Part shown: one piece after another, positions 8,984-23,061 of the stretch
How positions within the stretch are numbered: the stretch's first letter is position 1
Layout: each line of letters starts with the position of its first letter
DNA from: Lachnospiraceae bacterium
Lineage (GTDB): Bacteria > Bacillota_A > Clostridia > Lachnospirales > Lachnospiraceae
Direction: 5' to 3'
Assembly (NCBI GenBank): GCA_024684065.1
Contig: JAIKXO010000274.1
Coordinates: 1-25,483 of the forward strand
DNA: 25,483 nucleotides
Made by a program: the position numbers and the translations under genes
The notes under the pieces: model-generated
Told to the model about the DNA's origin: nothing
The model's input: the letters and a program-made list of their open reading frames with translations, nothing else
The model's database searches: none

Positions 8984-9004
8984 TTTCCGGCTGATAAAAA
9001 TGAA

Positions 9005-9035: not shown

Positions 9036-9057
9036 CATAAACTGCGATTCCTTAATC

Positions 9058-10197
9058 TTATCGTAAATCCATCCCGGCTTTTACGAAACGAAACATCCTC
9101 ACGGCGCCCTCATAATAAAGCTCCTGCGCGTTTTCCAGAGCCTCTTCAAGGGACATCGGAGCGTTCACGGTTGTCATGAGGGAGGAGATCCCATATCCGC
9201 AGATCTTCATCGCATCCCTGCCGAGGGATCCGGAAAGTCCTAAAACGGGGATCCCCTTCGCCTGTGCCCGAAGCCCTACCCCCTGCATGACCTTTCCGAA
9301 GCAGCTCTGCCAGTCGGTCCTGCCTTCTCCTGTAACAACGATATCAACGCCCTCAAGGCGCTCGTCAAAGTTTATAAGATCGAGCACTGCCTCGATCCCT
9401 GATTTCATTTTCCCGCCAAGGAAGACAAAAAGAGCCGCTCCGAGGCCTCCCGCCGCGCCTGCGCCTTCTATGTCATCACAGTCCACCGAGAAAGCTTCCC
9501 TGATAACGTCCCTGTAATTGCACATCCCCTTCTCAAGGAATTCCTGTATCTCCGGCGTAGCCCCTTTCTGGGCTCCGAAGGTAAAGGTCGCTCCGTCTTT
9601 ACCGCAGAGAGGATTCTTTACATCACACATAACCGTGATCTCGCATTCCTTAAGTCTCCTGTCAAGGCCTGTGGCATCTATCTTACGGACATTTATAAGA
9701 TCCCTGCCGAAGCCCTCAAGCTCTGTCCCGTCCTTATCAAGGAACCGGATCCCTAAAGCCCTTACACAGCCCATGCCCCCGTCATTAGTGGCCGAGCCCC
9801 CTATCGCGATGGAAAGCTTCCTGTAACCTCTGTCAAGGGCATCAAGTATAAGCTCTCCGGTCCCGAAGGTAGTTGTGTTCCTGGGATCACGTTTATCTGC
9901 AGGAACAAGGGTAAGCCCGGAAGCCGCAGACATTTCGATAACGGCCTGGTCTTTCCCGAATACGCCGTAAGAAGCTTCCAGGACCTCCATACAGGGTCCG
10001 TGCACGGAACATTTTACGATCTCTCCGCCTTCGGCTTTGATTATCGCATTGGCCGTTCCCTCACCTCCGTCGGCGACAGGCACTCCTGCCGTCTCGCAGC
10101 TGCCGAAAACCTCATGGGCGGCTTTGGTGAGAAGCTCTATGGTCTGCTCGCTTGAAAGGCTTCCCTTAAAAGAATCCGAAGCAAATAATAATTTCAT
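9058..10197 (-). CDS. garK: Glycerate kinase, GarK/GlxK family
   Basis: Phosphorylates D-glycerate, normally to 2-phosphoglycerate in this family. The start at 10197 gives MKLLFASDSFKGSLSS, the invariant family N-terminus, 379 residues, with AAAGGA upstream; a longer in-frame start at 10242 would overlap the kinase gene and lacks support. Other landmarks are PVADGGEGT, the central IGGSATNDGGMG and the late VVTGEGRTDWQS. It is the last gene of the operon, 13 bases after the ketodeoxygluconate kinase, and followed by a terminator. Together with the GarR homologue at the promoter end it forms a tartronate semialdehyde to glycerate to phosphoglycerate branch. Confidence 0.93.
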   Translation of the reverse strand: MKLLFASDSFKGSLSSEQTIELLTKAAHEVFGSCETAGVPVADGGEGTANAIIKAEGGEIVKCSVHGPCMEVLEASYGVFGKDQAVIEMSAASGLTLVPADKRDPRNTTTFGTGELILDALDRGYRKLSIAIGGSATNDGGMGCVRALGIRFLDKDGTELEGFGRDLINVRKIDATGLDRRLKECEITVMCDVKNPLCGKDGATFTFGAQKGATPEIQEFLEKGMCNYRDVIREAFSVDCDDIEGAGAAGGLGAALFVFLGGKMKSGIEAVLDLINFDERLEGVDIVVTGEGRTDWQSCFGKVMQGVGLRAQAKGIPVLGLSGSLGRDAMKICGYGISSLMTTVNAPMSLEEALENAQELYYEGAVRMFRFVKAGMDLR

Positions 10198-10210
10198 GAT
10201 ATGATATCCT

Positions 10211-11233
10211 TTATCTCTGCACGCGCCCGGAGCCGCTGCCATTTGCCAGTGCTAAGACCTCTGCTTCCGTCACAAGGTTGAAATCATGTTCGATAGTATG
10301 CTTGAGGCAGGAAGCCGCTACCGCGAATTCTATGGCTTCCTCCGGCTCAAACCCCTTAAGCTCGGAATGGATAAGGGCACCCCCGAAGCTGTCTCCTCCT
10401 CCTACACGGTCCACGATATGGATCGTATATTCCTTTGAAAAATAAGCGTCCTTCCCGTCGTATAGCATCCCGGCCCAGTTATTGACCGTGGCAGATATGC
10501 TGCCTCTTAAGGTTATCGCGGTCTTTTTACAGCCAAACCGTTCGCAGAGCTGTTTTGCGACACTTATATATCCCTCCCTGGAAAGCTTTCCGGAATCAAT
10601 ATCGGTGTCGGGAGCCTTGATCCCGAACACATCTGAAGCATCCTCTTCATTGGCAATACAGAGGTCGACGTAAGGCATGAGTTTTCCCATGGTCTCCCCG
10701 GCCTCTTCCCTGCTCCAGAGCTTCTTTCTGTAATTAAGATCACAGCTTACCGTTATATTCTTTTTCTTAGCGGCTTTGCAGGCATCCATGCAGATTTCCG
10801 GCAGCTCACCGCCAAGTGCGGGAGTGATGCCCGTAAAATGGAACCAGTCTGCACCCTCAAATATGCTGTCCCAGTCAAAGTCCGACCTTGCCGCCTTTGC
10901 TATAGCGGAGCCTGCCCTGTCATATATGACCTTGGAAGCCCTCTGCGAGGCTCCTTTCTCGACGAAATAGACACCTAAGCGGTCCCCGCCTCTTACTATA
11001 TGCTCCGTTCCCACCCCGAAGCTTCGGAGTGAATTGACACAGGCCTGTCCTATCTCATGAGAAGGGATCTTGCTTACAAAGGAAGCGTCATCCCCGTACT
11101 GTGCCAGAGAAACTGCCACATTGGCCTCTCCTCCGGCAAAGCTTGCCTCAAAGCGGTCAGCCTGTACTATCCTTCGGTACCCTTCCGGGTTTAAGCGCAT
11201 CATAATCTCGCCAAATGTTATTATCCTCGCCAT
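10211..11233 (-). CDS. kdgK: PfkB-family 2-keto-3-deoxy-sugar-acid kinase
   Basis: Predicted to phosphorylate 2-keto-3-deoxygluconate or -galactonate at C6. The start at 11233 (MARIITFGEIMMRL, 340 residues) is preceded by GGGAGG; upstream in-frame ATGs lie in the overlap with the dehydrogenase gene. The PfkB substrate motif GGEANVAVSLAQYG is near residue 35, and the ATP/anion-hole motif GGGDSFGG contains catalytic Asp281. The length and the FGEIMMRLNP start match KdgK-type kinases. In the classical Enterobacterial galactonate operon this step is done by DgoK, which is of a different fold, so this would be a non-orthologous replacement. Sugar specificity is inferred from the DgoD and DgoA neighbours. 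Confidence 0.88.
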   Translation of the reverse strand: MARIITFGEIMMRLNPEGYRRIVQADRFEASFAGGEANVAVSLAQYGDDASFVSKIPSHEIGQACVNSLRSFGVGTEHIVRGGDRLGVYFVEKGASQRASKVIYDRAGSAIAKAARSDFDWDSIFEGADWFHFTGITPALGGELPEICMDACKAAKKKNITVSCDLNYRKKLWSREEAGETMGKLMPYVDLCIANEEDASDVFGIKAPDTDIDSGKLSREGYISVAKQLCERFGCKKTAITLRGSISATVNNWAGMLYDGKDAYFSKEYTIHIVDRVGGGDSFGGALIHSELKGFEPEEAIEFAVAASCLKHTIEHDFNLVTEAEVLALANGSGSGRVQR

Positions 11234-11255
11234 ACGGCCTGAACCTCCCATCCGG

Positions 11256-12281
11256 TCATTTATCCACGACAACGACCTTTATAAGATTATCTTCATGATT
11301 CTTGAGCTTCTCAAAATAAACAGCCGCCTCATCAAGCCTTATCTCCTTAGAGATCAGAGGCTGTACGCTGAGCTTTCCTTCATTCAGGAGAGCGACCACC
11401 TCACCGAACTCCTGATAACCATACAGGAAAGAACCGTATATCTGCAGCTCTCTCGTAACTACCTCCTGCATGTTCATCTCGATCATCTTGCGGTTGTTTC
11501 CTATCCAGACGGCTTTACCGCTGAAGCGTAACACCGACATTACCTGCTGTACGGTAGGCGCGATCCCTACCGCTTCTATGGCACAGTCAACGCCCATGCC
11601 GTCCGTATGTTCAAGCACGACCTCCTTCGGATCGTTTTTACCGGGATTTATGATGACATCCGCTCCAAGGCTCTTTGCTACCTTCAACCTGTCATCATCC
11701 ATATCGGAAACAAAAATCTTTTCCGCTCCCTTTATCTTCGCGCATACCATTGCAAGGAGACCGATCGTTCCGGTACCCGCAAGAAATACGCTCTTGCCCT
11801 TAAGATCCCCAAGATGCCCTACTCCCCTGTAGGCAACCGCAAGAGGCTCCATAAGGGAACCGATCACGGGAGAGACACCCTCTGCAACAGGGAAACAGCA
11901 TTTCTCCGGAACGCAGAGATATTCGGCAAAGGCTCCGTTTTCGGCCAGCACACCGTAAGAACGCTTGTTAAGGCAAAGGTGAACGTCACCCTTTTTGCAC
12001 ATCTCGCATTCTCCGCAGAAATTCACGGGATAGACGGCCACAAGATCTCCGGGCTTAAGATTCTTTACTCCCTCTGCGCACTCCACGACCTCGCCGCAGA
12101 ACTCATGTCCCATTATCATGGGCTCGATACGCCTGCCGGTCAGCCCCTGGTATCCGGCCACATCGGATCCGCAGATACCGCAGGCTTTGATCCGAAGCTT
12201 AACCTCTCCGGACACGGGAGAAACCTCCGGAACATCCGTATAATTAAGCTTATTAGGTCCTTCATAAACCAATGCTTTCAT
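11256..12281 (-). CDS. Zinc-dependent medium-chain dehydrogenase (polyol/sugar-acid type)
   Basis: NAD(P)-dependent oxidoreductase of 341 residues. Catalytic zinc residues are Cys37 (GICGSD) and His59-Glu60 (GHE); the structural zinc site is Cys89, Cys92, Cys95, Cys103; the Rossmann motif is GTGTIG in the second half. A strong AGGAGG precedes the start. Relatives include sorbitol, galactitol-1-phosphate, threonine and L-galactonate 5-dehydrogenases. It sits between the dehydratase and the kinase, so a role in making or diverting the acid substrate is likely, but which alcohol it oxidises is not readable. A 126-base gap with a small hairpin (12308-12322) separates it from dgoD. Confidence 0.85.
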   Translation of the reverse strand: MKALVYEGPNKLNYTDVPEVSPVSGEVKLRIKACGICGSDVAGYQGLTGRRIEPMIMGHEFCGEVVECAEGVKNLKPGDLVAVYPVNFCGECEMCKKGDVHLCLNKRSYGVLAENGAFAEYLCVPEKCCFPVAEGVSPVIGSLMEPLAVAYRGVGHLGDLKGKSVFLAGTGTIGLLAMVCAKIKGAEKIFVSDMDDDRLKVAKSLGADVIINPGKNDPKEVVLEHTDGMGVDCAIEAVGIAPTVQQVMSVLRFSGKAVWIGNNRKMIEMNMQEVVTRELQIYGSFLYGYQEFGEVVALLNEGKLSVQPLISKEIRLDEAAVYFEKLKNHEDNLIKVVVVDK

Positions 12282-12407
12282 TATTATATCCTCCTGTCAC
12301 TGTTAAAAGGGGATTTGCCCCTGAAATTTATGTGTGTCATATGCTTATAACGCCTGAATCATACGACATACCTGTTTTGAATATTATGTAAACCAACAGA
12401 GCCGGGT

Positions 12408-13556
12408 TCACCACTCCGCCACCGATCCGTCCTTATGTCTCCATACCGGATTCTTCCACTGGTGCGGAGTCCTGTTTTCTTCCATTACAAGCTCTTTATT
12501 GACTTCTACGCCGAGCCCGGGCTTTACAGGCAGCTTCACAAAGCCGTCCTCAAATTTGAAATCCTCCTTATTCAGGGCATAATCCAGAACACTCTTTCCG
12601 ACATTGTAATGGATGCCTATGCTCTGCTCCTGTATCACGGCATTATAACAGGTCGCGTCTATATTAAGGCAGGCAGAAAGCGCTATCGGCCCTAAAGGAC
12701 AATGGGGCGCTAAAGCCACATCATAGGCCTCGGCCATTGCCGCTATCTTTTTAACCTCTGTCAGCCCGCCCGCATGGGAAAGGTCAGGCTGGATTATATC
12801 CACGCCGCCTGCCTGTAACAGCCGCTTGAAATCATATTTCGTAAACAACCGTTCTCCCGTGGCTATCGGTATATTACAGACGGAAGCGATCTCCTTAAAA
12901 GCCTCCATGTTCTCGCAAAGCACCGGCTCCTCTATGAACATCGGATCAAATTCTTCGAGCTTTTTTGCTAACACCTTTGCCATAGGCCTGTGCACCCTGC
13001 CGTGGAAATCAATGGCTATTCCAAAGTATTTCCCGCAGGCCTCCCGAATCGCCGCCACACGTTCAAGTACGGCATCGATCTTGTCATAGCTGTCTATCAT
13101 CTGAAGCTCTTCCGTCGCATTCATCTTTACGGCAGAAAACCCCGAATCCATCCTTTCCTTTGCGGCAGAACCCACATCTGAGGGACGGTCTCCCCCTATC
13201 CAGGAATATACCTTCATGCGGTCCCTGACCGCCCCGCCCATAAGTTCATAGGCAGGAACTCCGAAAACCTTGCCCTTTATATCCCAGAGAGCCTGATCAA
13301 TGCCTGAAAGGGCGCTCATTAATACGCCTCCGCCCCGGTAAAAGCCGGCTCTGTATATTGTCTCCGAAATATCCTCTATCCGTCCGGGATCCGCTCCGAT
13401 AAGATAAGGCTTATATTCCTGCACACAGGCAAGCACGGCGTCGCAATGACCTTCAAGCACTGCCTCGCCCCAGCCGTCATAGCCCTCGTCAGTCATTATC
13501 TCGACAAAACCCCATCTCGGACGGACAAAATATGTATTGACCTCTTTTATCTTCAT
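12408..13556 (-). CDS. dgoD: D-galactonate dehydratase DgoD
   Basis: Enolase-superfamily enzyme that dehydrates D-galactonate to 2-keto-3-deoxygalactonate. The length of 382 residues equals E. coli DgoD as I recall it, and landmarks fall at the same positions: Asp183 and His185 (IDFHGR), Glu209 (FIEEP), Glu235 (ATGER) as metal ligands and bases, and His285 (APHCPLGP). The N-terminal MTDEG.DGWGEAV and YRAGFYRGG, and the C-terminal RHKDGSVAEW, also match the DgoD pattern. The start overlaps the aldolase stop by ATGA. Closest alternatives in the superfamily are mannonate or other sugar-acid dehydratases, but the residue-for-residue match favours galactonate. Confidence 0.94.
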   Translation of the reverse strand: MKIKEVNTYFVRPRWGFVEIMTDEGYDGWGEAVLEGHCDAVLACVQEYKPYLIGADPGRIEDISETIYRAGFYRGGGVLMSALSGIDQALWDIKGKVFGVPAYELMGGAVRDRMKVYSWIGGDRPSDVGSAAKERMDSGFSAVKMNATEELQMIDSYDKIDAVLERVAAIREACGKYFGIAIDFHGRVHRPMAKVLAKKLEEFDPMFIEEPVLCENMEAFKEIASVCNIPIATGERLFTKYDFKRLLQAGGVDIIQPDLSHAGGLTEVKKIAAMAEAYDVALAPHCPLGPIALSACLNIDATCYNAVIQEQSIGIHYNVGKSVLDYALNKEDFKFEDGFVKLPVKPGLGVEVNKELVMEENRTPHQWKNPVWRHKDGSVAEW

Positions 13557-14188
13557 GGCTTCGCCTCATTGATCCGTTTTAAGAGACCCGCAACGTAAGC
13601 CGAGCCTTCCTCCCAGCGATCCTCATTTACATACTGCTTCGGAAGGATCGCACTGCTTAAGCCTACTCCGACGAACCCGTTCTTAAAGAAGCTTCCGATA
13701 TTATCCGGGTTCACTCCTCCTATGGCAACATACTCCGTACCGTCAAAGGGTCCCTTAAGGCTTTTTATATATCCGGAGGGAAGATCCCCCGCGGGGAAGA
13801 GCTTAAGTGTCGTAAACCCGTGCTTGACGCAGAAGCTCACATCGGTGGGCGTCATAACGCCAGGCATCATGGGTATCCCCTTTTCCTCGCAGTAAAGAAC
13901 CACTTCACTGTCAGTGGAAGGAGTCAGAAGGAACTGCGCTCCCGCGCTGACCGCGTCCTCCGCCTTCTTAAGGGTTACCGCCGTACCCGCGCCGATATAT
14001 ACATCTTCCGAAAAATGCTCCCTGAGCATCTTTATCTGCTCACAGGCAGAGGGCGAGTTCATGGCAACCTCAAAGAATTTAACTCCGCCATTTACTATAG
14101 CCTCCGCATAGGGAATTGTTTTTTCAAAGGGGACATTCCTCAATATGGCAAGGAGAGGATTGTCCGTAACAACATCATGAATATTCAT
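13553..14188 (-). CDS. dgoA: 2-keto-3-deoxy-6-phosphogalactonate aldolase (DgoA-type)
   Basis: Class I aldolase of 211 residues that splits the phosphorylated keto-deoxy acid to pyruvate and glyceraldehyde-3-phosphate. The Schiff-base lysine is Lys129 in TLKLFPAG and the general base is Glu40 in FEVAMNSPSA. The NSP motif and the aliphatic residue before GGV (VAIGGVNPDN) follow E. coli DgoA rather than KDPG aldolase Eda, which has Thr there. An AAGGAG ribosome site lies nine bases upstream, inside or next to the end of a palindromic repeat copy. It overlaps dgoD by four bases, so the two are translationally coupled. Confidence 0.9.
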   Translation of the reverse strand: MNIHDVVTDNPLLAILRNVPFEKTIPYAEAIVNGGVKFFEVAMNSPSACEQIKMLREHFSEDVYIGAGTAVTLKKAEDAVSAGAQFLLTPSTDSEVVLYCEEKGIPMMPGVMTPTDVSFCVKHGFTTLKLFPAGDLPSGYIKSLKGPFDGTEYVAIGGVNPDNIGSFFKNGFVGVGLSSAILPKQYVNEDRWEEGSAYVAGLLKRINEAKP

Positions 14189-14201
14189 ATCATCAGTCTC
14201 C

Positions 14202-14312
14202 TTACTGCAAATCGTATGCTTAGGTATAAACTTCTCAGTTTATGCCGATTAAATCCGGCATTTACTTTAGCAAATGTCGAATAAGTCCGGGCTGTTTTTC
14301 AGACCTGATCCT
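14202..14312 (-). repeat. Triple-hairpin intergenic repeat, copy A
   Basis: Lies between the permease stop and dgoA. It contains GGTATAAACT/AGTTTATGCC (14223-14246) and GGCATTT/AAATGTC (14257-14278), then a GTCCGGGCTGTTTTTCAGACC segment. The order and much of the sequence match copy B at 17827-17950; this copy has lost most of the first hairpin. Its right edge just reaches the permease stop codon. Confidence 0.7.
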
Positions 14313-15264
14313 AAACCCGGCTCTTCTTAAACGATGGGATGATCTGAAGCATCAGCACTATGATGAGAAGCAGTCCGGTAACTATCTGCTGCCACCAGGA
14401 ATTGATGTCGCCCTGGAGGTTGATCATATTCCCGATTATAGCCAGGATAAACACGCCGTAGATAGTGGTCTCGATCTTGCCGGAGCCTCCCGCGAGAGAA
14501 GTTCCGCCGATCGCGACCGACGCGATCGCGTCCATCTCCCAGCCGTCACAGGCAACAGGCTGTCCCGTACCGGCCCTCGATACCAGAATGAGCCCCGCCA
14601 GTGCGGATGCAAACCCCGAGATCGTGTATACCGCTATCTTTATCCGGTCAACCCTTATTCCCATCATCTGGGCCGCCGCCTCGTTACCGCCTACCGCGTA
14701 GATCTGGCGTCCGAACTTCCTGAACTTAAGTATATAAATAAAGATCAGGGCAAAAATGAGGAAGATAAGGAAAATGAGCGGCAGGTTGAATATGGCCAGC
14801 TTTGCTATCCTGGGAAGCCACTTCTTCGGCGTTCCCGAAATATGCATTGTCTCGCCGCTGGTCATTACAAGGGATATACCCCTTGCGATGAGCTGGAAGC
14901 CAAGGGATGAGATTATCGGGGCGACCCGCATCTTCGAGATCACACAGCCGTTCATGAATCCGAAAAGCGTTCCGATAAGAAGGGGAAGCAAAAGGATTAT
15001 GAAAGGATTTTCCGTGAAGCTTAAATACGCCGCTATGACCGAGGTCATGGAGCAGACCGCACCTACCGAAAGGTCTATCCCGCCCGTCAGGACGACCATG
15101 GTCATGGCCACCGCGATAAGGCCTATCATCGAATTCTGCCTGAGCAGATTATATATGTTCGTCCAGCTGTGGAAAACAGGATAGCGCAGGGCCGCTATGA
15201 TAAAAAGCACGATGAGTGCGGTGAGAGCGCTTTGTTTTGAGAAAAACTTTTTAATGTTTGTCAT
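14311..15264 (-). CDS. Sugar ABC transporter permease, RbsC/YjfF type (second permease)
   Basis: Inner-membrane subunit of a CUT2-class sugar importer, 317 residues with about eight to ten hydrophobic helices. Hallmarks are LTGGIDLSVGAV near residue 60 and VAIGGTSLAGGSGK, the ATPase-coupling loop, near 250. The ribosome site is GGGAGGG. It is 15 bases from the other permease. The pair of unlike permeases with a single two-domain ATPase is the YtfT/YjfF arrangement of the galactofuranose transporter, in contrast to RbsC homodimers. It is separated from dgoA by repeat copy A. Confidence 0.92.
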   Translation of the reverse strand: MTNIKKFFSKQSALTALIVLFIIAALRYPVFHSWTNIYNLLRQNSMIGLIAVAMTMVVLTGGIDLSVGAVCSMTSVIAAYLSFTENPFIILLLPLLIGTLFGFMNGCVISKMRVAPIISSLGFQLIARGISLVMTSGETMHISGTPKKWLPRIAKLAIFNLPLIFLIFLIFALIFIYILKFRKFGRQIYAVGGNEAAAQMMGIRVDRIKIAVYTISGFASALAGLILVSRAGTGQPVACDGWEMDAIASVAIGGTSLAGGSGKIETTIYGVFILAIIGNMINLQGDINSWWQQIVTGLLLIIVLMLQIIPSFKKSRV

Positions 15265-15279
15265 GTCGTCTGCCCTCCC

Positions 15280-16263
15280 TTACCGCTTCTTTTCCTGCTG
15301 GATGAATACCGCTATGATTATTATGAGTCCCTTCATGATCCGGGCATAAGCATAGTGGATATTATTCATGTTTATGGTGATCGTAATGAGCTGGATTATC
15401 ATCGCGCTTATCACGGTAGTAAGGATCCTTGATTTGCCGCCGGACATTGAGGTTCCGCCTATGGCGACTGCGGCGATGGCATCCATCTCGGCAAGGGCAC
15501 CGAGGTTTGTCGGATCAGCCGCGCTTGTCCTTGAGGATACAAGAAGTCCTGCAATAGCAGCAATAAAGGCACTTATCATATAAACCAGTATCTGTACCTT
15601 CGTCGTCTTGATCCCGCAGAGCCATGCGGCCTGAGGATTCTCGCCTATTGCCTGTACCTGATAGCCGAACACCGTCCGCTTTATGATAAAGGCAGTCACC
15701 GCCACAAACAGGATCTCTATGAGGAACTGGATCGGAACATTGCCCGGAAGCCTTAAGATTCCAACCGCGTTGAACGGAGTATTTGAAAACGACAGTATCT
15801 TTCCGTTTGCGATAAGCTGGGTAAGGCCTCTGGCGATAATATAAGTCGTCAGCGTGACTATGATCGGCTGCATCTTAAAGACAGATATCATAAATCCGTT
15901 AAAAAAGCCGAACAGAAGCGATACCGCAAGAGCCATTACGATACCTAAGAAAATGCTCTTTGGAAATATCGGATATATCCCGTTCATGATGACCGCATTC
16001 ATTGCCCCGGCAACCGCCATTACCGAACCGACGGAAACATCTATGCCGCCGCATGAAATAACAAAGAGCATGCCCATTGAGGTTATTATGATGGGGAAGG
16101 CCTGGATCAGCAGGTTCCACATTGTATTTATTGCAAGAAAGTTCTTGTTAGATATCGCATTCACGATGATCAGGAGCAGAAAAGCGTACAACGCTCCGAA
16201 CTTCTTCAAATGCTTGTTAAACCCGGGCATATTAGTCTGGATCCTTTGCTTTGCTTCAGCCAT
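15280..16263 (-). CDS. Sugar ABC transporter permease, RbsC/YtfT type (first permease)
   Basis: A membrane permease of 327 residues from the ATG at 16263, which has a strong GGAGGAGG site; a longer in-frame start at 16299 lies deeper in the ATPase gene and is less likely. The start overlaps the ATPase stop by eight bases, a coupling often seen in these operons. Hallmarks are SCGGIDVSVGSV and the coupling loop AIGGTSMSGGKSR. About eight to ten transmembrane segments begin near residue 20. It probably forms a heterodimer with the next gene's product. Confidence 0.92.
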   Translation of the reverse strand: MAEAKQRIQTNMPGFNKHLKKFGALYAFLLLIIVNAISNKNFLAINTMWNLLIQAFPIIITSMGMLFVISCGGIDVSVGSVMAVAGAMNAVIMNGIYPIFPKSIFLGIVMALAVSLLFGFFNGFMISVFKMQPIIVTLTTYIIARGLTQLIANGKILSFSNTPFNAVGILRLPGNVPIQFLIEILFVAVTAFIIKRTVFGYQVQAIGENPQAAWLCGIKTTKVQILVYMISAFIAAIAGLLVSSRTSAADPTNLGALAEMDAIAAVAIGGTSMSGGKSRILTTVISAMIIQLITITINMNNIHYAYARIMKGLIIIIAVFIQQEKKR

Positions 16264-17788
16264 GAGCCACCTCCTCCGTTTCCCTGACATTCTTTGCAAT
16301 ATGATTCATGATGCTCGCCTCCGTGATCTCCTCTCCGCTAAGCTCCGCGGCATTTTTCCCATCCCGTATGACGACCACCCGATAACAGTTCCTTATAAGC
16401 TCTTCAAGCTCCGAAGAAATATAGAGAACGCTTATCCCGTTCTCGGAGAACTGCTTTATCAGGTTTTCGATCTCCGCCTTCGCTCCTACATCGATCCCTC
16501 TCGTGGGCTCATCAAGGATTATGAGCTTGGGCCCCATGGAAAGCCAGCGGCCGAGAAGAGCCTTCTGCTGGTTTCCTCCGGAAAGGTTGCAGATAAGCTG
16601 GTCCGGGCTCGGGGTCTTTATACGGATCGATTTTATATATTCGTCAACGATCTCGTTCTGTTTGCGTCTGTTGACCACACCGAACTTCGATATCCTCGGG
16701 AGCGCCGTTATAGTCATATTCTCCTTTACTGACATATGGGGGAAGATGCCTTCGACCTTCCTGTCTTCCGAACAGTAAGCAAAGCCTATGTCTATCGCTC
16801 CGTTGGGGGTCTTTAACCGTATGGGCTTTCCTTCAACCTCGAACTCCCCGGTATAGGTATTGTCACATCCGAACACCACCTTGGCAAACTCGGATTTACC
16901 GGCACCGAGAAGACCTGCAATACCTACGATCTCTCCCGGCCTTATGTCTATCGATATCCCGTGGAGCTTGACCCTGTTATCAATATCCTTTGTATGCACT
17001 AAAGGTATCTCGCCCTCTTTGCCTTCATATTCTCCGACGGAACGCTTAAGAACGTTGCTCGCGTCCCTTCCGATCATCTTAGAGACCATCTCAAGCCTTG
17101 AGATCTTGTCGATGTCATAGCTCCCTACCAGCTTTCCGTCCTTAAGGATAGTAGCCCTGTCGCATATCGTATATACCTCGTCAAGCTTGTGGCTTATGAA
17201 GATTATGGAGATCCCCTTTGCCACGAGATCCCGCATTTTCTCAAACATCACCTTTATCTCATCGTCCGCAAGGGAGGAGGTAGGTTCATCCATTATAAGG
17301 AGCTTAGCGTTCTGGGAGATCGCCCTGGTTATCGCGACCATCTGCTGTATGGCAGTAGAATAGGTTGCAAGGTCCTTATCAACATCTATGTCGATCCCGT
17401 TATCGAGAAGAAGCTGCCTTGCCTGTCTGCGCACGGCCTTCCAGTCTATTCCGAAGACATTACGCGGCTCCCTGCCGATAAATATATTCTCGGCGACGGA
17501 CAGATGAGGGATAAGGTTTATCTCCTGATAGATAGTGCTTATGCCGGCATTCTGGGAATCCTGCGGAGTATGGAAGTTGCGCTCCTGCCCGTCAAAGATT
17601 ATCTCCCCGGAATCCTTTGAATAAAGCCCCGTCAAAACCTTTATAAGGGTCGACTTCCCGGCTCCGTTTTCCCCCATCAGGGCGTGTATCTCGCCCCTTC
17701 TGACGGAAAAATCAACATGATCGAGGGCATGCACGCCCGTGAACATTTTATCAAGCTGCTTAATTTCAAGAAGAAGGTTATTTTCCAT
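16256..17788 (-). CDS. Sugar ABC transporter two-domain ATPase, RbsA/YtfR type
   Basis: Energises import; 510 residues with two ABC domains. Domain one: Walker A GENGAGKST at 39-47, degenerate signature (YSTAIQQMVAI), Walker B LLIMDEPTSSL. Domain two: modified Walker A GLLGAGKSE, signature LSGGNQQKALLGRW, Walker B LIILDEPTRGID. The altered Walker A of the second domain is usual for RbsA-type proteins. The ribosome site is weak (AGGGAAAA). It follows a 250-base gap after the binding-protein gene that contains repeat copy B and a strong hairpin, so its expression may be lower than that of the binding protein. Confidence 0.94.
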   Translation of the reverse strand: MENNLLLEIKQLDKMFTGVHALDHVDFSVRRGEIHALMGENGAGKSTLIKVLTGLYSKDSGEIIFDGQERNFHTPQDSQNAGISTIYQEINLIPHLSVAENIFIGREPRNVFGIDWKAVRRQARQLLLDNGIDIDVDKDLATYSTAIQQMVAITRAISQNAKLLIMDEPTSSLADDEIKVMFEKMRDLVAKGISIIFISHKLDEVYTICDRATILKDGKLVGSYDIDKISRLEMVSKMIGRDASNVLKRSVGEYEGKEGEIPLVHTKDIDNRVKLHGISIDIRPGEIVGIAGLLGAGKSEFAKVVFGCDNTYTGEFEVEGKPIRLKTPNGAIDIGFAYCSEDRKVEGIFPHMSVKENMTITALPRISKFGVVNRRKQNEIVDEYIKSIRIKTPSPDQLICNLSGGNQQKALLGRWLSMGPKLIILDEPTRGIDVGAKAEIENLIKQFSENGISVLYISSELEELIRNCYRVVVIRDGKNAAELSGEEITEASIMNHIAKNVRETEEVAHG

Positions 17789-17826
17789 ATCTTTTCCCTA
17801 TCATTTCTGTATCTTAAGGTCAGATC

Positions 17827-17950
17827 ATTACTGCACCGATTTGCGCAGCAAATCGTGTGCTTTGGTATAAACTTTAGTTTATACCGAACCAATTCGGCAT
17901 TTGCCTTGGCAAATGTCGAATAAGCCCGGGCTGTTTACAGACCGGATCAT
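17827..17950 (-). repeat. Triple-hairpin intergenic repeat, copy B
   Basis: Three consecutive hairpins: GCAC-CGATTTGC/GCAAATCG-GTGC (17833-17860), GGTATAAACT/AGTTTATACC (17864-17885) and CGGCATTTGCC/GGCAAATGTCG (17895-17918). A CCGGGCTGTTTACAGACCGG segment follows. It is closely similar to copy A. It sits between the binding-protein gene and the ATPase gene inside the operon. Confidence 0.75.
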
Positions 17951-17974
17951 TCGAATCATTTCCTCTTTAAACGC

Positions 17975-17997
17975 AGGAGGAGCATAGAGCTCCTCCT
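17975..17997 (-). terminator. Hairpin after the binding-protein gene (partial terminator or mRNA stabiliser)
   Basis: A perfect 9-bp stem AGGAGGAGC/GCTCCTCCT with a five-base loop, 42 bases after the lipoprotein stop. Only a short T stretch follows in the transcribed direction, so read-through to the ATPase gene is expected. Similar hairpins after binding-protein genes raise the abundance of that mRNA segment in other sugar importer operons. The right arm also resembles an anti-ribosome-binding sequence. Confidence 0.55.
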
Positions 17998-18038
17998 ACC
18001 TGATTTTCTATAAAGCTTCAATTTAACTGAATTTATGC

Positions 18039-19076
18039 TTAGAAGCCCTCGCCGGCATCAAGTGAAGCCTGGGCATTGTCGATGTTGTAGAGCTTGCCCT
18101 GAAGGACGACCCTGTCATCAAAGGTCTCGCCTGCTTCAAGCTTGTTGATGAGCTCAACGATCGCATCACCGTAGAAAGGATTGCAGAGATATGTTGCGGT
18201 CATCTCACCGTCGATTATAGCCTGAAGGCCGTCAGTAGTTCCGTCAACACCGAATACCTTGATATCCTCGCCGGGTGTAAGGCCTGCTGCCTTGATGGCG
18301 TTGATCGCGCCGATACCGTTGTCATCGGAATGAGCATAAACTACATCGATCTCATCGCCGTAGCTCTGGATAAGGTTCTCCATAGCGGTCTGTGACTCTG
18401 TACGGGAGAAATTACCAACCTGTGAAGCTAAGATATTGTAGTTATCATACTGATCGATGATGTTTCTGAAGCCTTCCGCACGCTGTGCCGTAACGTCGGC
18501 ACCGGGGGTTCCGGTAAGCTCCACGATATTGATGGGATCATCTGTTCCGAAGGTATCAACAACAGCCTGTCCTACGTTCTCACCTTCCATGATGTAATCG
18601 CCCTGGATAAGGACATCATAGGGACCGTCCGCAAGGCGGTCATAAAGGACAACGGTTATGCCGGCATCCTTTGCTTCTTCAAGTACGTTCTCATAGCCTT
18701 CCTGCTCACGGGGACCGATTACCAGATAATCAGGCTTCTGGGCGATCATATCCTCAAGGTCTGAGATCTGCTGAGCCGTGTCGTCGTTAGCATCTGCGAA
18801 AATAACATTCCAGCCCTGCTCTTTAAGAGCGCGGTTGATATCATCCGTATTGGTAACACGCCAGTTATTATAGGAAGCATACTGGCTGAAGCCTACCGTA
18901 AGAGCCCCTTCTGCGGGAGCTTCGGCTGTATCGGCCTCAGGAGCCTCTGCATCATCTGCGGGTGCCTCTGTGGTCTCATCGGGGACAGCAGACTCCGTAA
19001 CCATTCCGGCGCAGCCTGTAAGAAGGGAAGCAGCCATTGCTGCTGTCAGTAAGGTTGCAAGTAATTTCTTTCTCAT
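18039..19076 (-). CDS. YtfQ-like sugar-binding lipoprotein of the ABC transporter
   Basis: Periplasmic-binding-protein-like lipoprotein that delivers a sugar to the importer. The start at 19076 (MRKKLLATLL) has TAAGGAGG just upstream and gives 345 residues. The lipobox is LLTGC with lipidated Cys22, followed by an acidic Ala/Glu/Pro-rich spacer to about 62. The ligand domain (Peripla_BP_4) opens with VGFSQYASYNNWR and contains IVELTGTPGADV, SQVGNFSRTES, VYAHSDDNGIGAI and GVDGTTDGL. This order closely follows E. coli YtfQ, the galactofuranose-binding protein, more than ribose- or xylose-binding proteins. The ligand is therefore probably a furanose aldose, but contact residues were not checked structurally. 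Confidence 0.9.
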   Translation of the reverse strand: MRKKLLATLLTAAMAASLLTGCAGMVTESAVPDETTEAPADDAEAPEADTAEAPAEGALTVGFSQYASYNNWRVTNTDDINRALKEQGWNVIFADANDDTAQQISDLEDMIAQKPDYLVIGPREQEGYENVLEEAKDAGITVVLYDRLADGPYDVLIQGDYIMEGENVGQAVVDTFGTDDPINIVELTGTPGADVTAQRAEGFRNIIDQYDNYNILASQVGNFSRTESQTAMENLIQSYGDEIDVVYAHSDDNGIGAINAIKAAGLTPGEDIKVFGVDGTTDGLQAIIDGEMTATYLCNPFYGDAIVELINKLEAGETFDDRVVLQGKLYNIDNAQASLDAGEGF

Positions 19077-19157
19077 GTCATCCTCCTTAATCATATTAAC
19101 ATAAATGCATTGTCTATCTCCTCACCTTTCGGTGCAGGGTTCATTTGCTTAGATCTG

Positions 19158-20057
19158 CTATTTGTCTATCTTCCTCATCTCGACACCGCTGATCTTCTCG
19201 TAATACTTAAGAATGGCGCTATGGTCATCGCTCCCCGCTCCGTTGTTGTGGAGCCACTGAAGCATCTCCTGGACCGCGCTCGTAAGGATCATCGGAGTTC
19301 CTACTCCATGACCGGTATCAAGAGCATTGTTCAGATCCTTTATATGAAGGTCAATACGGAAGCCGGGTTTGAAGTTTCCGTCGAGCATCATCGGAACCTT
19401 TGCATCCATTACGGTCGAGCCGGCAAGGCCTCCCCTTATGGCCGCAAATACCTTTTCGGGATCAACGCCCGCCATGGTGGCAAGCTCAAAAGCCTCCGCG
19501 CAGGCCGCGATATTTACGGCAACGATGACCTGGTTGGCAAGCTTTGTCGTGTTTCCGGCGCCGTTCACGTCTCCGCAGTGCACTACTGAAGCACCCATAA
19601 CGCCTAAAAGGTCATAATATTTGTCAAACAGAGCCTTCGGGCCTCCGCACATGATGGAAAGCGTACCGTCTATGGCTTTCGGCTCTCCGCCGGAAACAGG
19701 CGCATCCATCATATTGATGCCCTTTTCAGCGCACTTCTCGGCGATATCCTTAGACTGAAGAGGAGCTATTGAGCTCATGTCGATAATGTCAAGCCCTGCC
19801 TTCGCTCCCTCGGCGATGCCGCCTGCTCCGAAAACTGCCTCCCTTACGTGGGGAGAATTAGGCACCATGGTTATGACCACATCGCTCTTTGAAGCCACGT
19901 CGGCATTGCTTTCGCCTCTTTTCGCGCCGCAGGAAACAACATCATCAAGCGCCTCTTTTGCAAACGGATCAAACGCCGTCACCTCATAACCTGCCTTCAG
20001 AAGGTTCTTGCACATGGGCCTTCCCATGATCCCAAGTCCTACAAATCCTACTTTCAT
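19158..20057 (-). CDS. garR: Beta-hydroxyacid dehydrogenase, GarR/tartronate semialdehyde reductase type
   Basis: NAD(P)H-dependent reductase of 299 residues, in E. coli converting tartronate semialdehyde to D-glycerate. The cofactor motif GLGIMG is at 7-12, the substrate motif DAPVSGGEPKA at 119-129, the catalytic Lys172 in GNTTKLANQ, and the C-terminal helical DL..KDL..A stretch is present. An AAAGGAG site precedes the ATG. It lies between the split transketolase and the binding lipoprotein. Relatives also reduce succinic semialdehyde, 3-sulfolactaldehyde or act on 3-hydroxyisobutyrate, so tartronate semialdehyde is the best guess, supported by glycerate kinase in the same operon. Confidence 0.87.
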   Translation of the reverse strand: MKVGFVGLGIMGRPMCKNLLKAGYEVTAFDPFAKEALDDVVSCGAKRGESNADVASKSDVVITMVPNSPHVREAVFGAGGIAEGAKAGLDIIDMSSIAPLQSKDIAEKCAEKGINMMDAPVSGGEPKAIDGTLSIMCGGPKALFDKYYDLLGVMGASVVHCGDVNGAGNTTKLANQVIVAVNIAACAEAFELATMAGVDPEKVFAAIRGGLAGSTVMDAKVPMMLDGNFKPGFRIDLHIKDLNNALDTGHGVGTPMILTSAVQEMLQWLHNNGAGSDDHSAILKYYEKISGVEMRKIDK

Positions 20058-20101
20058 TACAGAATTTCTCCTTTCTAATTAACTATTTCCTTATATATCC
20101 G

Positions 20102-21043
20102 CTACGCCAGTGAGTTGATCTTCTTAACAGCTTCCGCTATATGTTCGGAAGTGAGTCCCAGATATTCAAGGATATCCTTGTAACTGTGAGCCGAAGCCCC
20201 GAACCTGTCATTTACTCCGACAAATTCTATGGGGATCCTTTCAAGCCTTAAGGCCTCCGCTATGGCTCCGCCAAGACCGCCGACAATGCTGTGCTCCTCT
20301 GCGGTAACGCATCCGCTCTTCACACTCTTTGCTATCTCTGTGACACAGTCCCTGTCAAGAGGCTTTATAGAGCTCACGTTCACAACCTTTACGGAAATCT
20401 CATCTTTGAGAGCCTCTGCGGCTTCCAAAGCCTTCGGTACCATAACGCCGCAGGCAAATACCGCAACATCCGTACCTTCCCTTAATACCGTAGGTTTTCC
20501 GGGTTTGAATTCCGCTCCCTCGGGGGTAACATTATCATAGGGATTCCTGTTTACCCTTAAGTACATCGGTCCCTTATGGGAGGCCATGTACCTTACGGCC
20601 GCTTCGGTCTCGTTAGCGTCAGCGGGAACAAAAACACTCATGTTAGGGATAACCCTCATATAAGCTATGTCATCTATAGACTGATGTGTCGCTCCGTCTC
20701 CGAAATCGGAACATCCTGCCGAGGATCCGCAGATCTTTACGTTCAGCTCGCCGATGGATATGGTCTGCCTTATCTGGTCGTAAGCTCTTCCTCCGGCGAA
20801 TACCGCGAAGGAACTGATAAACGGGATCTTCCCTGCCCTTGCTAAACCGCCTGCCGTCGAGGCCATGTTCGCCTCCGCTATGCCCATCTCTATGTGCCTT
20901 CCTTCAAGACCCGGCTCCGTCTCTACCATCTTACCCATGGTGGATCCTGCAAGGTCCGCGTCCAGCACCACGATGTCCTTATTCTCGTGGCAGAGCTCCA
21001 CGAGCGTCCGGCCGTATGCATTTCTCTGATTTGTTTCAGCCAT
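20102..21043 (-). CDS. Split transketolase, C-terminal (pyrimidine-binding) subunit
   Basis: The second half of a two-gene transketolase, 313 residues. It carries the catalytic glutamate Glu57 in EMGIAEANM, which activates the thiamine cofactor, plus the Pyr domain (GGRAYDQIRQ, DGATHQSIDDIA) and the transketolase C-terminal domain from about 190. The LRVNRNP segment corresponds to the sugar-phosphate binding region. The ribosome site is AAAAGGAG. It begins 40 bases after the N-terminal subunit. Both halves are required for activity. Two-gene transketolases are common in anaerobes for central metabolism, but placement in a sugar operon suggests a dedicated substrate. Confidence 0.92.
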   Translation of the reverse strand: MAETNQRNAYGRTLVELCHENKDIVVLDADLAGSTMGKMVETEPGLEGRHIEMGIAEANMASTAGGLARAGKIPFISSFAVFAGGRAYDQIRQTISIGELNVKICGSSAGCSDFGDGATHQSIDDIAYMRVIPNMSVFVPADANETEAAVRYMASHKGPMYLRVNRNPYDNVTPEGAEFKPGKPTVLREGTDVAVFACGVMVPKALEAAEALKDEISVKVVNVSSIKPLDRDCVTEIAKSVKSGCVTAEEHSIVGGLGGAIAEALRLERIPIEFVGVNDRFGASAHSYKDILEYLGLTSEHIAEAVKKINSLA

Positions 21044-21083
21044 GATTCCTGTCTCCTTTTATATAATGTAAGGTTTCGGTTTA

Positions 21084-21905
21084 CTATGAGAGTTCCTTAA
21101 GAGCTATGTCGTATTCTTCCTGCGTCAGCGCCCTGTTATGATACCCTGCCTGGTTCTCCGCGAAGCTTATTCCCTTTCCTTTTACGGTATGAGCCACTAT
21201 GGCGGTAGGCCTGTCAGTGCATTTTTCCGCTTCATCAAGGGCGGTAAGGATCTCTTCCATGTTATGACCGTCTATCTCTATGACATTCCAGCCGAAAGCC
21301 TTCCATTTATCCGCTATATGCTCGTTCGGGAGCCTGTCGGCTATTTTGCCTGTGGCCTGGAAGCCGTTATTGTCTATTATCGCGCAGAGATTGTTAAGCT
21401 TCTTTGCGCCCGAGGACATTGCTGCTTCCCATATCTGGCCTTCGTCCATCTCGCCGTCGCCTACGAGAACGTATACCCTGTTTTCCTTTCCGTCTAACTT
21501 AAGAGCTATCGCTATGCCTGATCCAAGGGAAAGCCCCTGTCCAAGCGAACCGGTGCCTGCCTCTATGCCGGGGGTACCTAAGTGCGGATGACCCTGAAGG
21601 TAGAAGCCCACCTCCTTGCAGCGGGGCAGATCTTCCACGGGGAAAAACCCTTTCTCCGCCAGGGCGGCGTACTGGAGTATCGCCACATGCCCCTTTGAGA
21701 GCAGGAAGTAGTCTCTTCCTTCCCATTCAGGGTCCTTCGGGTCGACCTTCAGCTTATGGAAATAGAGAGCAGCCATTATATCAGCGCTTGAGCAGCTCCC
21801 GCCGACATGTCCGGCAACACCGACCCCGATGCACTTTATGCAGTCGCGCCTTAACGTCTTCCCCATCTCCTCCAATGATCTTATGGTTTCTTCGCTATAT
21901 GCCAT
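21084..21905 (-). CDS. Split transketolase, N-terminal (TPP-binding) subunit
   Basis: The first gene of the operon, 273 residues. The thiamine diphosphate motif starts GDG at 149-151 and ends NN at 179-180. His33 (GHVGG) and His73 (SKGHVA) occupy the usual active-site histidine positions, and the GSLGQGLS loop is at about 119-126. The ribosome site is GGAGGAG. It pairs with the next gene to form a full transketolase moving two-carbon ketol units between sugars. It is separated by 469 bases from the divergent GntR gene and has its own promoter at 22010-22039. Confidence 0.93.
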   Translation of the reverse strand: MAYSEETIRSLEEMGKTLRRDCIKCIGVGVAGHVGGSCSSADIMAALYFHKLKVDPKDPEWEGRDYFLLSKGHVAILQYAALAEKGFFPVEDLPRCKEVGFYLQGHPHLGTPGIEAGTGSLGQGLSLGSGIAIALKLDGKENRVYVLVGDGEMDEGQIWEAAMSSGAKKLNNLCAIIDNNGFQATGKIADRLPNEHIADKWKAFGWNVIEIDGHNMEEILTALDEAEKCTDRPTAIVAHTVKGKGISFAENQAGYHNRALTQEEYDIALKELS

Positions 21906-21967
21906 GATTTTCTCCTCCGATCGCTTATGCTTATCCGTTTAAGTCATTAAGGCTGTTTTACGGGCTA

Positions 21968-21993
21968 GCTGTAAGCTGTGTGCTGTAAGCTGT
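21968..21993. repeat. Tandem direct repeat in the operon leader
   Basis: GCTGTAAGCTGT occurs twice with a 14-base period (21968-21979 and 21982-21993), in the transcribed leader of the transketolase operon. It may be a replication-slippage duplication or a binding site. Confidence 0.5.
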
Positions 21994-22009
21994 ATTACAA
22001 GTTAATCAC

Positions 22010-22039
22010 ATTCTAACTCCCTTTTATGGAGTTTGTCAA
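22010..22039 (-). promoter_or_regulatory. Promoter of the transketolase/galactonate operon
   Basis: On the minus strand, consensus TTGACA (22039-22034), an 18-base spacer, then TAGAAT (22015-22010). The spacer holds the inverted repeat AACTCC/GGAGTT, which could bind a regulator. The leader is about 100 bases to the transketolase start. Confidence 0.7.
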
Positions 22040-22073
22040 TTAGTCATTATCAACTATGTTTTACCGGGAAATT

Positions 22074-22090
22074 TTGTACAATTTGCACAA
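22074..22090. promoter_or_regulatory. Candidate operator of the GntR regulator
   Basis: TTGTACAATTTGCACAA is a 17-base near-perfect palindrome; outside the central base only one symmetric pair differs. It lies between the two divergent promoters, 35 bases beyond the operon -35 box. The TTGT...ACAA form agrees with operators of FadR-subfamily regulators in general. Confidence 0.55.
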
Positions 22091-22096
22091 GGTGAC

Positions 22097-22115
22097 AGGA
22101 TTTGCTGCGTAAATC
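22097..22115. repeat. Single hairpin resembling the first module of the operon repeats
   Basis: GGATTTGCTGCGTAAATCC. Its core GATTTGCTGCGTAAATC differs by one base from the first hairpin of copy B (17837-17855) read on the minus strand. It is probably a fragment of the same repeat family. Confidence 0.45.
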
Positions 22116-22146
22116 CATTATTGACGGTCGGGCTGTAAATATCCTT

Positions 22147-22175
22147 TTGACAGACAGGGGATTTGTGAATATAAT
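22147..22175 (+). promoter_or_regulatory. Consensus promoter of the GntR regulator gene
   Basis: Perfect TTGACA (22147-22152), a 17-base spacer and perfect TATAAT (22170-22175). The transcript would start near 22182 and carry a leader of about 190 bases. Confidence 0.85.
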
Positions 22176-22185
22176 AGATGCAATT

Positions 22186-22224
22186 ATCTAAGGAAAAACT
22201 GATTAAATCAGTTTTTCCTTAGAT
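22186..22224 (+). promoter_or_regulatory. 18-bp perfect hairpin at the 5' end of the gntR transcript
   Basis: ATCTAAGGAAAAACTGAT, loop TAA, then the exact complement. It begins a few bases after the expected transcription start. Two further hairpins follow in the leader: CGGATTTTC/GAAAATCCG with inner GGCAC/GTGCC (about 22239-22282), and GGAAAC/GTTTCC (about 22288-22313). The array may protect the 5' end, attenuate transcription, or be an inserted palindromic repeat. Confidence 0.6.
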
Positions 22225-22374
22225 GCTCCGCAGGATGCGCACGGATTTTCAGCGGAAATTGGCACTTCGTGCCGAAAATCCGGCGCGGGAAACGCTTTAA
22301 TCAGTGTTTCCGGAATATTTGTTATCCAGATATCAGAGAGGATATTACGTCAGGCGCAGTCCGGAAAGGCAGTT

Positions 22375-23061
22375 ATGAAGATTCATCCGATACAGAAGAT
22401 CAATGCAGTGGAGCAGGTATTTGAACAGATGCAGGAGCTTTTGATAGACGGCACCTGGAAGGCGGGAGACAAGCTTCCTTCGGAGAATGAGCTTTCGGCT
22501 ACCTTTGGGGTGAGCCGTATGACAATACGCCAGTCGATGCAAAAGCTTAAGGCTCTCGGGCTGATCGAGACCCGTACCGGCTCAGGCTCTTACGTTAAAG
22601 AGCTCAATCCGGGAGATTCCCTCAATGAGCTCATCCCCCTTATGTATATAGGGAAGCCTTCCCAGATGCATGTGTTCCAGTTCCGTGAGATGATCGAATC
22701 TGAAAGCGTGCGTATCGCTACGCCCCTTGCGGATGAGAAGAGCCTTAACAGACTTGAGGAACTGTTTAAGAGGATGAAAAAAGCCTCAGAAGAGGATAAC
22801 AGCAGGGCTTTTTCCCAGCAAGACCTGAAATATCATATGACAATAGTCAATCTGACCGGCAACCCCATGATAATAAGGGCTTACGAGATCCTCGGCACGG
22901 TCCTTAAGGAGTCCATGGTCTCTGTTATCGAAAAAATGAAGTATACTCCCGCACTGGGATATCACCGTAAAATACTAGACGCAATGAAGGAAAAGGATGA
23001 AGTCCTCGCCGAAAAGCTAATGCGCGAACATATAAGGCAGAATTACCAGTATTTTGAATAA
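22375..23061 (+). CDS. GntR-family (FadR/FCD subfamily) transcriptional regulator
   Basis: DNA-binding regulator of 228 residues, probably a repressor of the divergent operon. The N-terminal winged helix-turn-helix is at about 10-75 (KLPSENELSATFGVSRMTIRQ region). The C-terminal FCD ligand domain has the full metal-binding set Asp150, His154, His197 and His219. This domain class typically senses sugar acids or their breakdown products, as in DgoR and UxuR. The start has GGAAAGG upstream. It lies directly opposite the transketolase promoter, with a candidate operator at 22074-22090. The stop codon abuts a long palindrome. Confidence 0.93.
   Translation: MKIHPIQKINAVEQVFEQMQELLIDGTWKAGDKLPSENELSATFGVSRMTIRQSMQKLKALGLIETRTGSGSYVKELNPGDSLNELIPLMYIGKPSQMHVFQFREMIESESVRIATPLADEKSLNRLEELFKRMKKASEEDNSRAFSQQDLKYHMTIVNLTGNPMIIRAYEILGTVLKESMVSVIEKMKYTPALGYHRKILDAMKEKDEVLAEKLMREHIRQNYQYFE

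Follow-up and report, generated by a model that had tools for sequence, protein, structure and literature searches.

A split transketolase-GarR module with an altered phosphate site accompanies galactonate genes in a Lachnospiraceae bacterium and may act on a second sugar acid

Gene content and signals of a twelve-gene cluster

The 25,483-nt contig JAIKXO010000274.1 of a Lachnospiraceae bacterium (GCA_024684065.1), hereafter the window, contains a same-strand run of twelve genes, from 21905 down to 9058 on the minus strand, in which D-galactonate genes lie together with a split transketolase, a tartronate semialdehyde reductase (GarR), and a glycerate kinase (GarK). The gene order (5′ to 3′) is TktN, TktC, GarR, a sugar-binding protein, an ATPase, two permeases, a KDPG/KHG-family aldolase, DgoD, a Zn-dependent medium-chain dehydrogenase/reductase (MDR; here zADH), a PfkB kinase, and GarK; a GntR regulator of the FCD type (22375–23061, plus strand; PF00392 and PF07729) is divergent. 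The tktN-tktC-garR segment is a unit of its own, mostly occurring without galactonate genes, and its transketolase belongs to a distinct clade with Ser in place of a phosphate-site His.

The two transketolase halves together carry the thiamine pyrophosphate (TPP) and catalytic domains. The N-terminal (TPP) subunit is encoded by tktN (21084–21905, minus; PF00456, 168 bits; NF004559, 304 bits over the N-terminal half), for which the closest solved chain was the split transketolase 6yak, and the C-terminal subunit by tktC (20102–21043, minus; PF02779 and PF02780), which was aligned to 6yaj and human transketolase. The garR product (19158–20057, minus) scored above the cut-offs of two tartronate semialdehyde (2-hydroxy-3-oxopropionate) reductase equivalogs (NF008592, 463 versus 397 bits; TIGR01505, 406 versus 341), its best solved chain was the tartronate semialdehyde reductase 1vpd, and it contains S122, K172, and N175, which we take to be the catalytic residues; activity on tartronate semialdehyde is predicted. 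GarK (9058–10242, minus, start probably 10197; PF02595, 441 bits) cleared the TIGR00045 glycerate kinase family (427 versus 168), but was below two E. coli-type equivalogs (339 versus 686 and 339 versus 625). The zADH gene (11256–12281, minus; PF00107 and PF08240) encodes a proposed aldonate penultimate-carbon dehydrogenase with zinc ligands as expected (C37/H59/E60/E145 and C89/C92/C95/C103), and its best scores were to the inosose 3-, threonine 3-, and idonate 5-dehydrogenases, which are secondary-alcohol enzymes.

The galactonate half of the cluster is ordinary. DgoD (12408–13556, minus; solved chain 3rr1) cleared the NF010624 D-galactonate dehydratase equivalog (632 versus 311). The aldolase (13553–14188, minus; PF01081) is a probable 2-keto-3-deoxy-6-phosphogalactonate aldolase that reached the TIGR01182 family (161 versus 156) and scored 142 versus 207 with the PRK09140 phosphogalactonate model. 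The PfkB protein (10211–11272, minus, start probably 11233; PF00294), a probable 2-keto-3-deoxygalactonate kinase, was nearest to the kinase half of NF041633 (578 versus 700) and to kinases of 2-keto-3-deoxygluconate and 2-keto-3-deoxygalactonate, and was below every cut-off; its start and that of garK were judged from where the family matches begin. The importer is of the CUT2 type and consists of a YtfQ-like substrate-binding lipoprotein (18039–19094, minus; PF13407; nearest solved chains mostly named YtfQ), an ATPase (16256–17788, minus; PF00005 in two stretches), and two permeases (15280–16299 and 14311–15264, both minus and PF02653). All equivalog scores were below the cut-offs of the YtfQRT-YjfF galactofuranose system (205 versus 510 for the binding protein against YtfQ, 590 versus 850 for the ATPase against NF041861, then 177 versus 535 and 228 versus 363).

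A preliminary description had placed the twelve genes behind an upstream promoter, with a divergent FCD regulator and a closing terminator, and this layout was confirmed by gene calls and by promoter and hairpin scans. The two best promoter matches in the scanned 18 kb both fall between the regulator and tktN, facing opposite ways: TTGACA-18-TAGAAT (22010–22039, minus, 11/12 consensus matches), predicted to serve the cluster, and TTGACA-17-TATAAT (22147–22175, plus, 12/12), predicted to serve the regulator. Just past the latter, the regulator leader contains a perfect 19-nt inverted repeat (22186–22224). A predicted terminator with a 14-pair stem and a T-rich tail lies after garK (9004–9036, minus), and a 19-pair terminator-like hairpin lies after the regulator (23185–23227). 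Over the 18 kb, the scans returned 34 promoter-like sites versus 23.4 (standard deviation, 3.9) in shuffles, and 24 terminator-like sites versus 15.5 (standard deviation, 3.4). The genes may form a single transcript, but the binding-protein and ATPase genes are separated by 250 nt (17789–18038, minus) in which the repeat and hairpin scan detected several inverted repeats. The sequence TTGTAATACAGCT (21988–22000, minus) lies immediately downstream of the cluster −10 element; its pattern, TGTANTACA, was present in the region preceding tktN at 6 of the 28 loci, compared with a mean of 0.19 and a maximum of 2 in 300 shuffles. The exact pattern was absent from the other 22 loci and the test of a longer motif was circular; the site is a candidate only for the operator of a shared regulator.

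The transketolase-GarR module and its active-site clade

A search for conserved neighborhoods with this gene order, as proposed in the preliminary description, identified one genome (G088, loci L129 and L294) with all twelve genes in the order of the window, garK included; two further genes are inserted, one cyclase-like and the other on the opposite strand and resembling a regulator by eye. Because this second genome carries the twelve genes in the same order, the grouping is not due to chance. A Lachnospiraceae contig from a metagenome-assembled genome (MAG; L001) was nearly syntenic, with eleven related genes; garK was not seen there, and the KDPG-family aldolase was only 32% identical to that of the window and placed elsewhere in the cluster. 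Both syntenic operons encode a 226-aa protein, cyclase-like by eye (L001:4314-4994 and L129:7768-8448), with no counterpart seen in the window; it had no match in an NCBIfam search at E ≤ 1e-15 and is perhaps a lactone hydrolase. When genome contigs were scanned with DgoD, 286 relatives were found, and among the best 80, which were kept, an aldolase match was present in 47 loci and a PfkB kinase match in 34. The complete tktN, tktC, and garR set was also present in four of these 80 (L001, L052, L060, and L072), and a fifth (L068) had a more distant, His-type transketolase.

Searches with GarR yielded 60 matches at E ≤ 1e-90 in 397 genomes from the same family as G001 and 36 matches at E ≤ 1e-120 in 391 genomes from the class that includes the Clostridium sp. 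MAG G004; transketolase genes occurred in 10 of the 40 regions fetched from the family set (30 were without) and in 13 of the 20 from the class set. When 398 phylum genomes were searched with TktC at E ≤ 1e-130, a threshold too strict to be useful, only two matches were returned, one being the center genome. We tabulated 32 module places, comprising the window and places from 29 genomes, with neighborhoods counted at 12.5 kb. The table contains tktN at 31 places, garR at 30 (a biased count because the places were gathered mostly through GarR), the FCD regulator at 18 (window included), and dgoD at 7. Adjacency was fairly tested only by a profile scan that started from TktC; in the 391 class genomes, it gave 30 places in 27 genomes at E ≤ 1e-105. 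At 22 of these places the sequence was GSSxGxSD[FY]GDG or close to it, with Ser replacing the transketolase His; the other 8 had the usual TH motif. Within ∼1.5 kb on each side, garR was found beside 19/22 Ser-type places versus 0/8 His-type places (Fisher p = 2.8e-5), and the Ser-type places without garR belonged to G578 (two) and G525 (one). Five further Ser-type genomes (L297 to L301) and a fragment (G004:C340) lie outside the table, and garR was adjacent in all six but L298. Genome G578 has three Ser-type transketolase places, of which the two without garR (L288 and L289) adjoin TRAP transporter genes.

The neighbors of the module were varied. One of three types of dehydrogenase (Zn-MDR, a gluconate-5-dehydrogenase/KduD-like short-chain dehydrogenase/reductase (SDR), or a second SDR) was present at 29/32 places, and at 25/32 when at least 39% identity was demanded. 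A zADH relative with at least 45% identity accompanied the module at 7/7 places with dgoD versus 4/25 without (p = 1e-4). Acid-type transporters occurred at 11/32 places (GntP at 4, TRAP at 6, and TctA at 1), CUT1-type permease matches, some weak, at 8/32, and a CUT2 binding protein at 3/32. Pentoside-hydrolase-type genes were found at 6/32 places (glycoside hydrolase families GH43 at three, GH51-type at two, and GH3 at one), and GH29 was found at one; Pfam confirmed GH43 at L133 and L214, an arabinofuranosidase C-domain at L203, and the fucosidase at L136, and the remaining glycosidase assignments came from similarity or visual inspection. At L131, L132, and L138 of the table and at L300 and L301, the module adjoins a ketose-3-epimerase-like gene, a step that a keto-aldonate substrate would permit. 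Glycerate kinase genes adjoin the module in four genomes, as garK in the window, G187, and G088 and as the unrelated MOFRL type in G638. Proteins of the URO-D family lie beside the module at four loci (L200:3894-4889 and L206:13543-14577 by Pfam, and L132 and L198 by similarity).

Alignment of TktC placed Ser108 opposite the His of human transketolase CGSHCG. Of the phosphate-site set Arg, Ser, His, and Arg, three residues (R7, S34, and R166) are kept and the His is replaced by S108; Asp116 and His120 are also kept. In a 67-row TktC tree, from which seven aligned rows with less than 36% identity were omitted, the 31 garR-linked rows and three others formed one clade of 34 rows with 100/100 support. 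The three others were two G578 rows, with no garR beside them, and G004:C340, which has a piece of garR beside it. Ser108 was present in 34/34 clade rows, with Asp116, His120, and Arg166 kept, but in 0/40 other aligned rows (24 His, 5 Tyr, 5 Arg, and others). Five TktC rows (L249, L251, L265, L268, and L274), all from module-bearing genomes, have Tyr108 and SD..DG-like motifs and are possibly further specialized transketolases. His-type transketolase paralogs were read in 13/24 module genomes searched, with paralogs fetched for part of the genomes. The possibility, named in the preliminary description, that the transketolase is only a housekeeping copy is disfavored by the separate clade and these paralogs.

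The residue equivalent to position 108, His461 of transketolase, is among the substrate-binding residues listed in an excerpt of PMC4601599, and in PMC11659671 the Faecalicatena sulfofructose transketolase, as modeled by AlphaFold, has Asp at position 108, with RAFDR versus the phosphate-orienting RSFHR. An engineered E. coli transketolase, R358I/H461S/R520Q, converts 5-keto-gluconate into tartaric semialdehyde (excerpt of PMC12016104, citing Wang et al. 2022). We regard this as good evidence against a phosphate head group on the substrate of the Ser108 enzymes, and as moderate evidence for a carboxylate.

Two features of the window lie outside the cluster. A full-length Clostridiales-1 RNA (RF01699, 129 bits) is located at 5552–5717 on the plus strand, and a 307-aa protein encoded at 7749–8672 (minus) matched nothing in Pfam or NCBIfam at E ≤ 0.001, although a relative with 49% identity occurs near a garR gene in L163.

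A proposed two-arm scheme and its alternatives

Our preferred, though tentative, interpretation is that the cluster serves two related sugar acids, D-galactonate and a second aldonate that is cut by a transketolase route. The gene content, family assignments, module conservation, and Ser108 clade were read directly from sequence; from these we infer the reactions and substrate of the second arm, as well as the cargo of the importer. In the first arm, DgoD would convert D-galactonate to 2-keto-3-deoxygalactonate, and the PfkB kinase and the aldolase would then yield pyruvate and glyceraldehyde 3-phosphate. In the second arm, the aldonate would first be oxidized by zADH at the carbon beside its terminal CH2OH, and the product would be a ketose acid (HOCH2-CO-CHOH-CHOH-COO-); zADH and the SDRs of other modules resemble enzymes that oxidize secondary alcohols adjacent to a terminal CH2OH. 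TktN/TktC would use this unphosphorylated keto-acid as donor and move its two-carbon ketol onto a sugar phosphate acceptor (for example glyceraldehyde 3-phosphate, which would become xylulose 5-phosphate), freeing tartronate semialdehyde. GarR would reduce the semialdehyde to D-glycerate, and GarK would form 2-phosphoglycerate. Because GarR would consume the reducing equivalent produced in the zADH oxidation, the second arm can be redox-neutral.

GarR-type beta-hydroxyacid reductases require an aldehyde beta to a carboxylate, and by our reasoning a C3-C4 cut of a 4-keto-pentonate yields exactly tartronate semialdehyde. The most likely substrate of the second arm is a pentonate such as L-arabinonate, which we prefer because it has C2-C4 in common with D-galactonate and because zADH (at least 45% identity) accompanies every dgoD. 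The preliminary description had suggested that, beside the galactonate route, a second arm uses transketolase to cut a keto-acid and passes the aldehyde through GarR to glycerate; the GarR-linked Ser108 clade and the GarR equivalog matches support that suggestion. Its keto-acid cleavage can be retained, but the arm is better viewed as a free-standing tktN-tktC-garR unit with a dehydrogenase and a changed phosphate site, found with dgoD at only 7/32 places. We rejected by reasoning a serial scheme that would place zADH and transketolase behind DgoD, with 2-keto-3-deoxygalactonate as their substrate, because it yields no glycerate and 25/32 modules are without dgoD. Apiose degradation via 3-oxo-isoapionate, which would give hydroxypyruvate, was also considered; an apionate oxidoisomerase was not recognized, with no model search made for it.

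Several observations weigh against the two-arm scheme. No dehydrogenase was seen at 3/32 places, garR is missing at two of the three G578 places, and 2 of the 22 Ser-type places come from the center genome G004, which was picked for its module. zADH was below all equivalog cut-offs, including those for L-threonine 3-dehydrogenase (209 versus 380 and 199 versus 458), and its presence at all seven dgoD places is also compatible with a hexonate as its substrate. The R358I/H461S/R520Q variant is reported to be 55.3% more active on 5-keto-gluconate (excerpt of PMC12016104), and because the gain is only of this size the ordinary transketolase is not inert on that compound; moreover, the clade has the equivalent of H461S only, the Arg equivalents R7 and R166 being unchanged. 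The scheme is favored by GarK or MOFRL-type kinases, which occur in 21/24 module genomes versus 81/148 sampled (p = 0.0016, unions counted by hand), yet these samples are related, partly overlapping genomes of unknown completeness, and for GarK alone the comparison is 17/24 versus 73/148 (p = 0.04), with the gene of G222 in two pieces. By our own stereochemical reasoning, the 4-keto-acid from L-arabinonate would be opposite in configuration to the normal transketolase donors; therefore, a changed enzyme preference or an epimerase would be required, and an epimerase was not recognized in the window.

The main rival, which we regard as unlikely yet deserving attention, is a six-carbon version in which a hexonate-derived 5-keto-aldonate is the donor and a four-carbon acid of the tartaric semialdehyde type is reduced by the GarR-like enzyme to a tetronate. 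The engineered H461S-containing E. coli enzyme provides a precedent for the donor (excerpt of PMC12016104), and the plant tartrate route is proposed to consist of L-idonate dehydrogenase followed by transketolase (excerpt of PMC11066805). Occurrence of zADH with dgoD at 7/7 places agrees with this version, as does the second NCBIfam match of the epimerase-like gene, 5-keto-L-gluconate epimerase, which was below cut-off. A three-carbon product is instead indicated by the tartronate semialdehyde reductase equivalogs that GarR exceeds and by the glycerate kinases adjoining the module in four genomes, and the hydrolases beside 6/32 modules are of the pentoside type; a tetronate kinase or aldolase was not recognized by eye in the loci, no search having been aimed at them.

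It is improbable that TktN/TktC is an ordinary pentose-phosphate transketolase that recycles glyceraldehyde 3-phosphate from galactonate together with pentoses, while GarR and GarK take glycerate from another source. Split transketolases of the ordinary type do exist (6yak), only one of the four phosphate-site residues is changed, and pentoside-hydrolase-type or xylose-isomerase-like genes lie near some modules; nevertheless, the Ser108 enzymes form a clade of their own that is linked to garR, 13 of the 24 module genomes also yielded His-type paralogs, and 25/32 places have no dgoD to supply the triose. Least probable of all is a single linear route in which galactose or galactofuranose enters through the importer and is oxidized by zADH to galactonate: the binding protein is of YtfQ type and the MDR family includes sugar 1-dehydrogenases (PF16912 match, 37.8 versus 34.9), but every YtfQ/R/T/YjfF equivalog cut-off was missed, zADH occurs with the module and GntP acid transporters without dgoD in L132, L198, and L200, and no lactonase was recognized among the 20 window proteins scanned. 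The family scores and the neighborhoods of relatives disfavor zADH as a galactose 1-dehydrogenase. The earlier suggestion that an imported sugar is oxidized to galactonate is not supported: acid-type transporters lie at 11/32 modules, and zADH scores best to secondary-alcohol dehydrogenases.

Beyond the window, the two-arm scheme leads to a broader proposal, to which we give a chance not far from even, that the Ser-for-His keto-aldonate transketolases are a natural family defining an undescribed, redox-neutral route of Clostridia for pentonates, possibly other aldonates, used with many importers and glycosidases. With similar reserve, we suggest that its steps run in the order dehydrogenase, transketolase, tartronate semialdehyde reductase, and glycerate kinase. 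If true, this would add a carbon-carbon cleaving sugar-acid route to anaerobic gut-type bacteria, one traceable by the Ser108 motif GSSxGxSD[FY]GDG beside garR. The clade would then offer a naturally occurring parallel to the engineered H461S change, and its enzymes would be candidates for keto-aldonate biocatalysis.

Comparison with known pathways

The preliminary description knew of no pathway using exactly this set of genes, and word matching in the open-licence literature, which is weak evidence of absence, likewise found none among the papers listed, judging by titles and abstract openings, nor any joining transketolase, tartronate semialdehyde, and galactonate or arabinonate. As far as searched, the transketolase-GarR module is undescribed and widely conserved. 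The cluster shares the DgoD, kinase, and aldolase steps with the dgo pathway; it differs in that the kinase is of PfkB type and in the addition of the transketolase-GarR-GarK arm and a CUT2 importer. Carter et al. are said to have described, in 2018, apiose catabolism through an apulose-4-phosphate transketolase, likewise a catabolic transketolase in a sugar operon, but reportedly with a phosphorylated ketose donor made by a kinase and with no GarR. The galactarate/glucarate pathway (garL-garR-garK) has in common the conversion of tartronate semialdehyde to glycerate and then 2-phosphoglycerate. The semialdehyde is made there by an aldolase, whereas no semialdehyde-forming aldolase was recognized in the cluster, which has a transketolase instead.

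The plant and engineered routes from 5-keto-gluconate to tartaric semialdehyde (excerpts of PMC11066805 and PMC12016104) also combine a penultimate-carbon dehydrogenase with a transketolase acting on an unphosphorylated keto-aldonate; they use a C6 donor, form a C4 product, and are biosynthetic or engineered, whereas the route proposed for the window would be natural, catabolic, and coupled to GarR/GarK. Similar in its manner of working is the sulfo-transketolase pathway of sulfoquinovose in Faecalicatena, a gut-type Clostridia genus. As presented in PMC11659671, that pathway likewise has a split transketolase with the phosphate-orienting His108 replaced and transfers two carbons from a sugar with a non-phosphate acidic head group. 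The sulfofructose transketolase has Asp108 and Ala36 in the in silico model of that paper, whereas TktC of the window has Ser108 and Ser34, so the RAFDR Ala/Asp motif is absent, and the partners of the window module are GarR and an aldonate-type dehydrogenase instead. Because the sulfo-motif is absent and a semialdehyde-forming aldolase was not recognized in the cluster, the module is a member of neither the sulfo-transketolase pathway nor the galactarate lower pathway, although it would work like the first and partly like the second.

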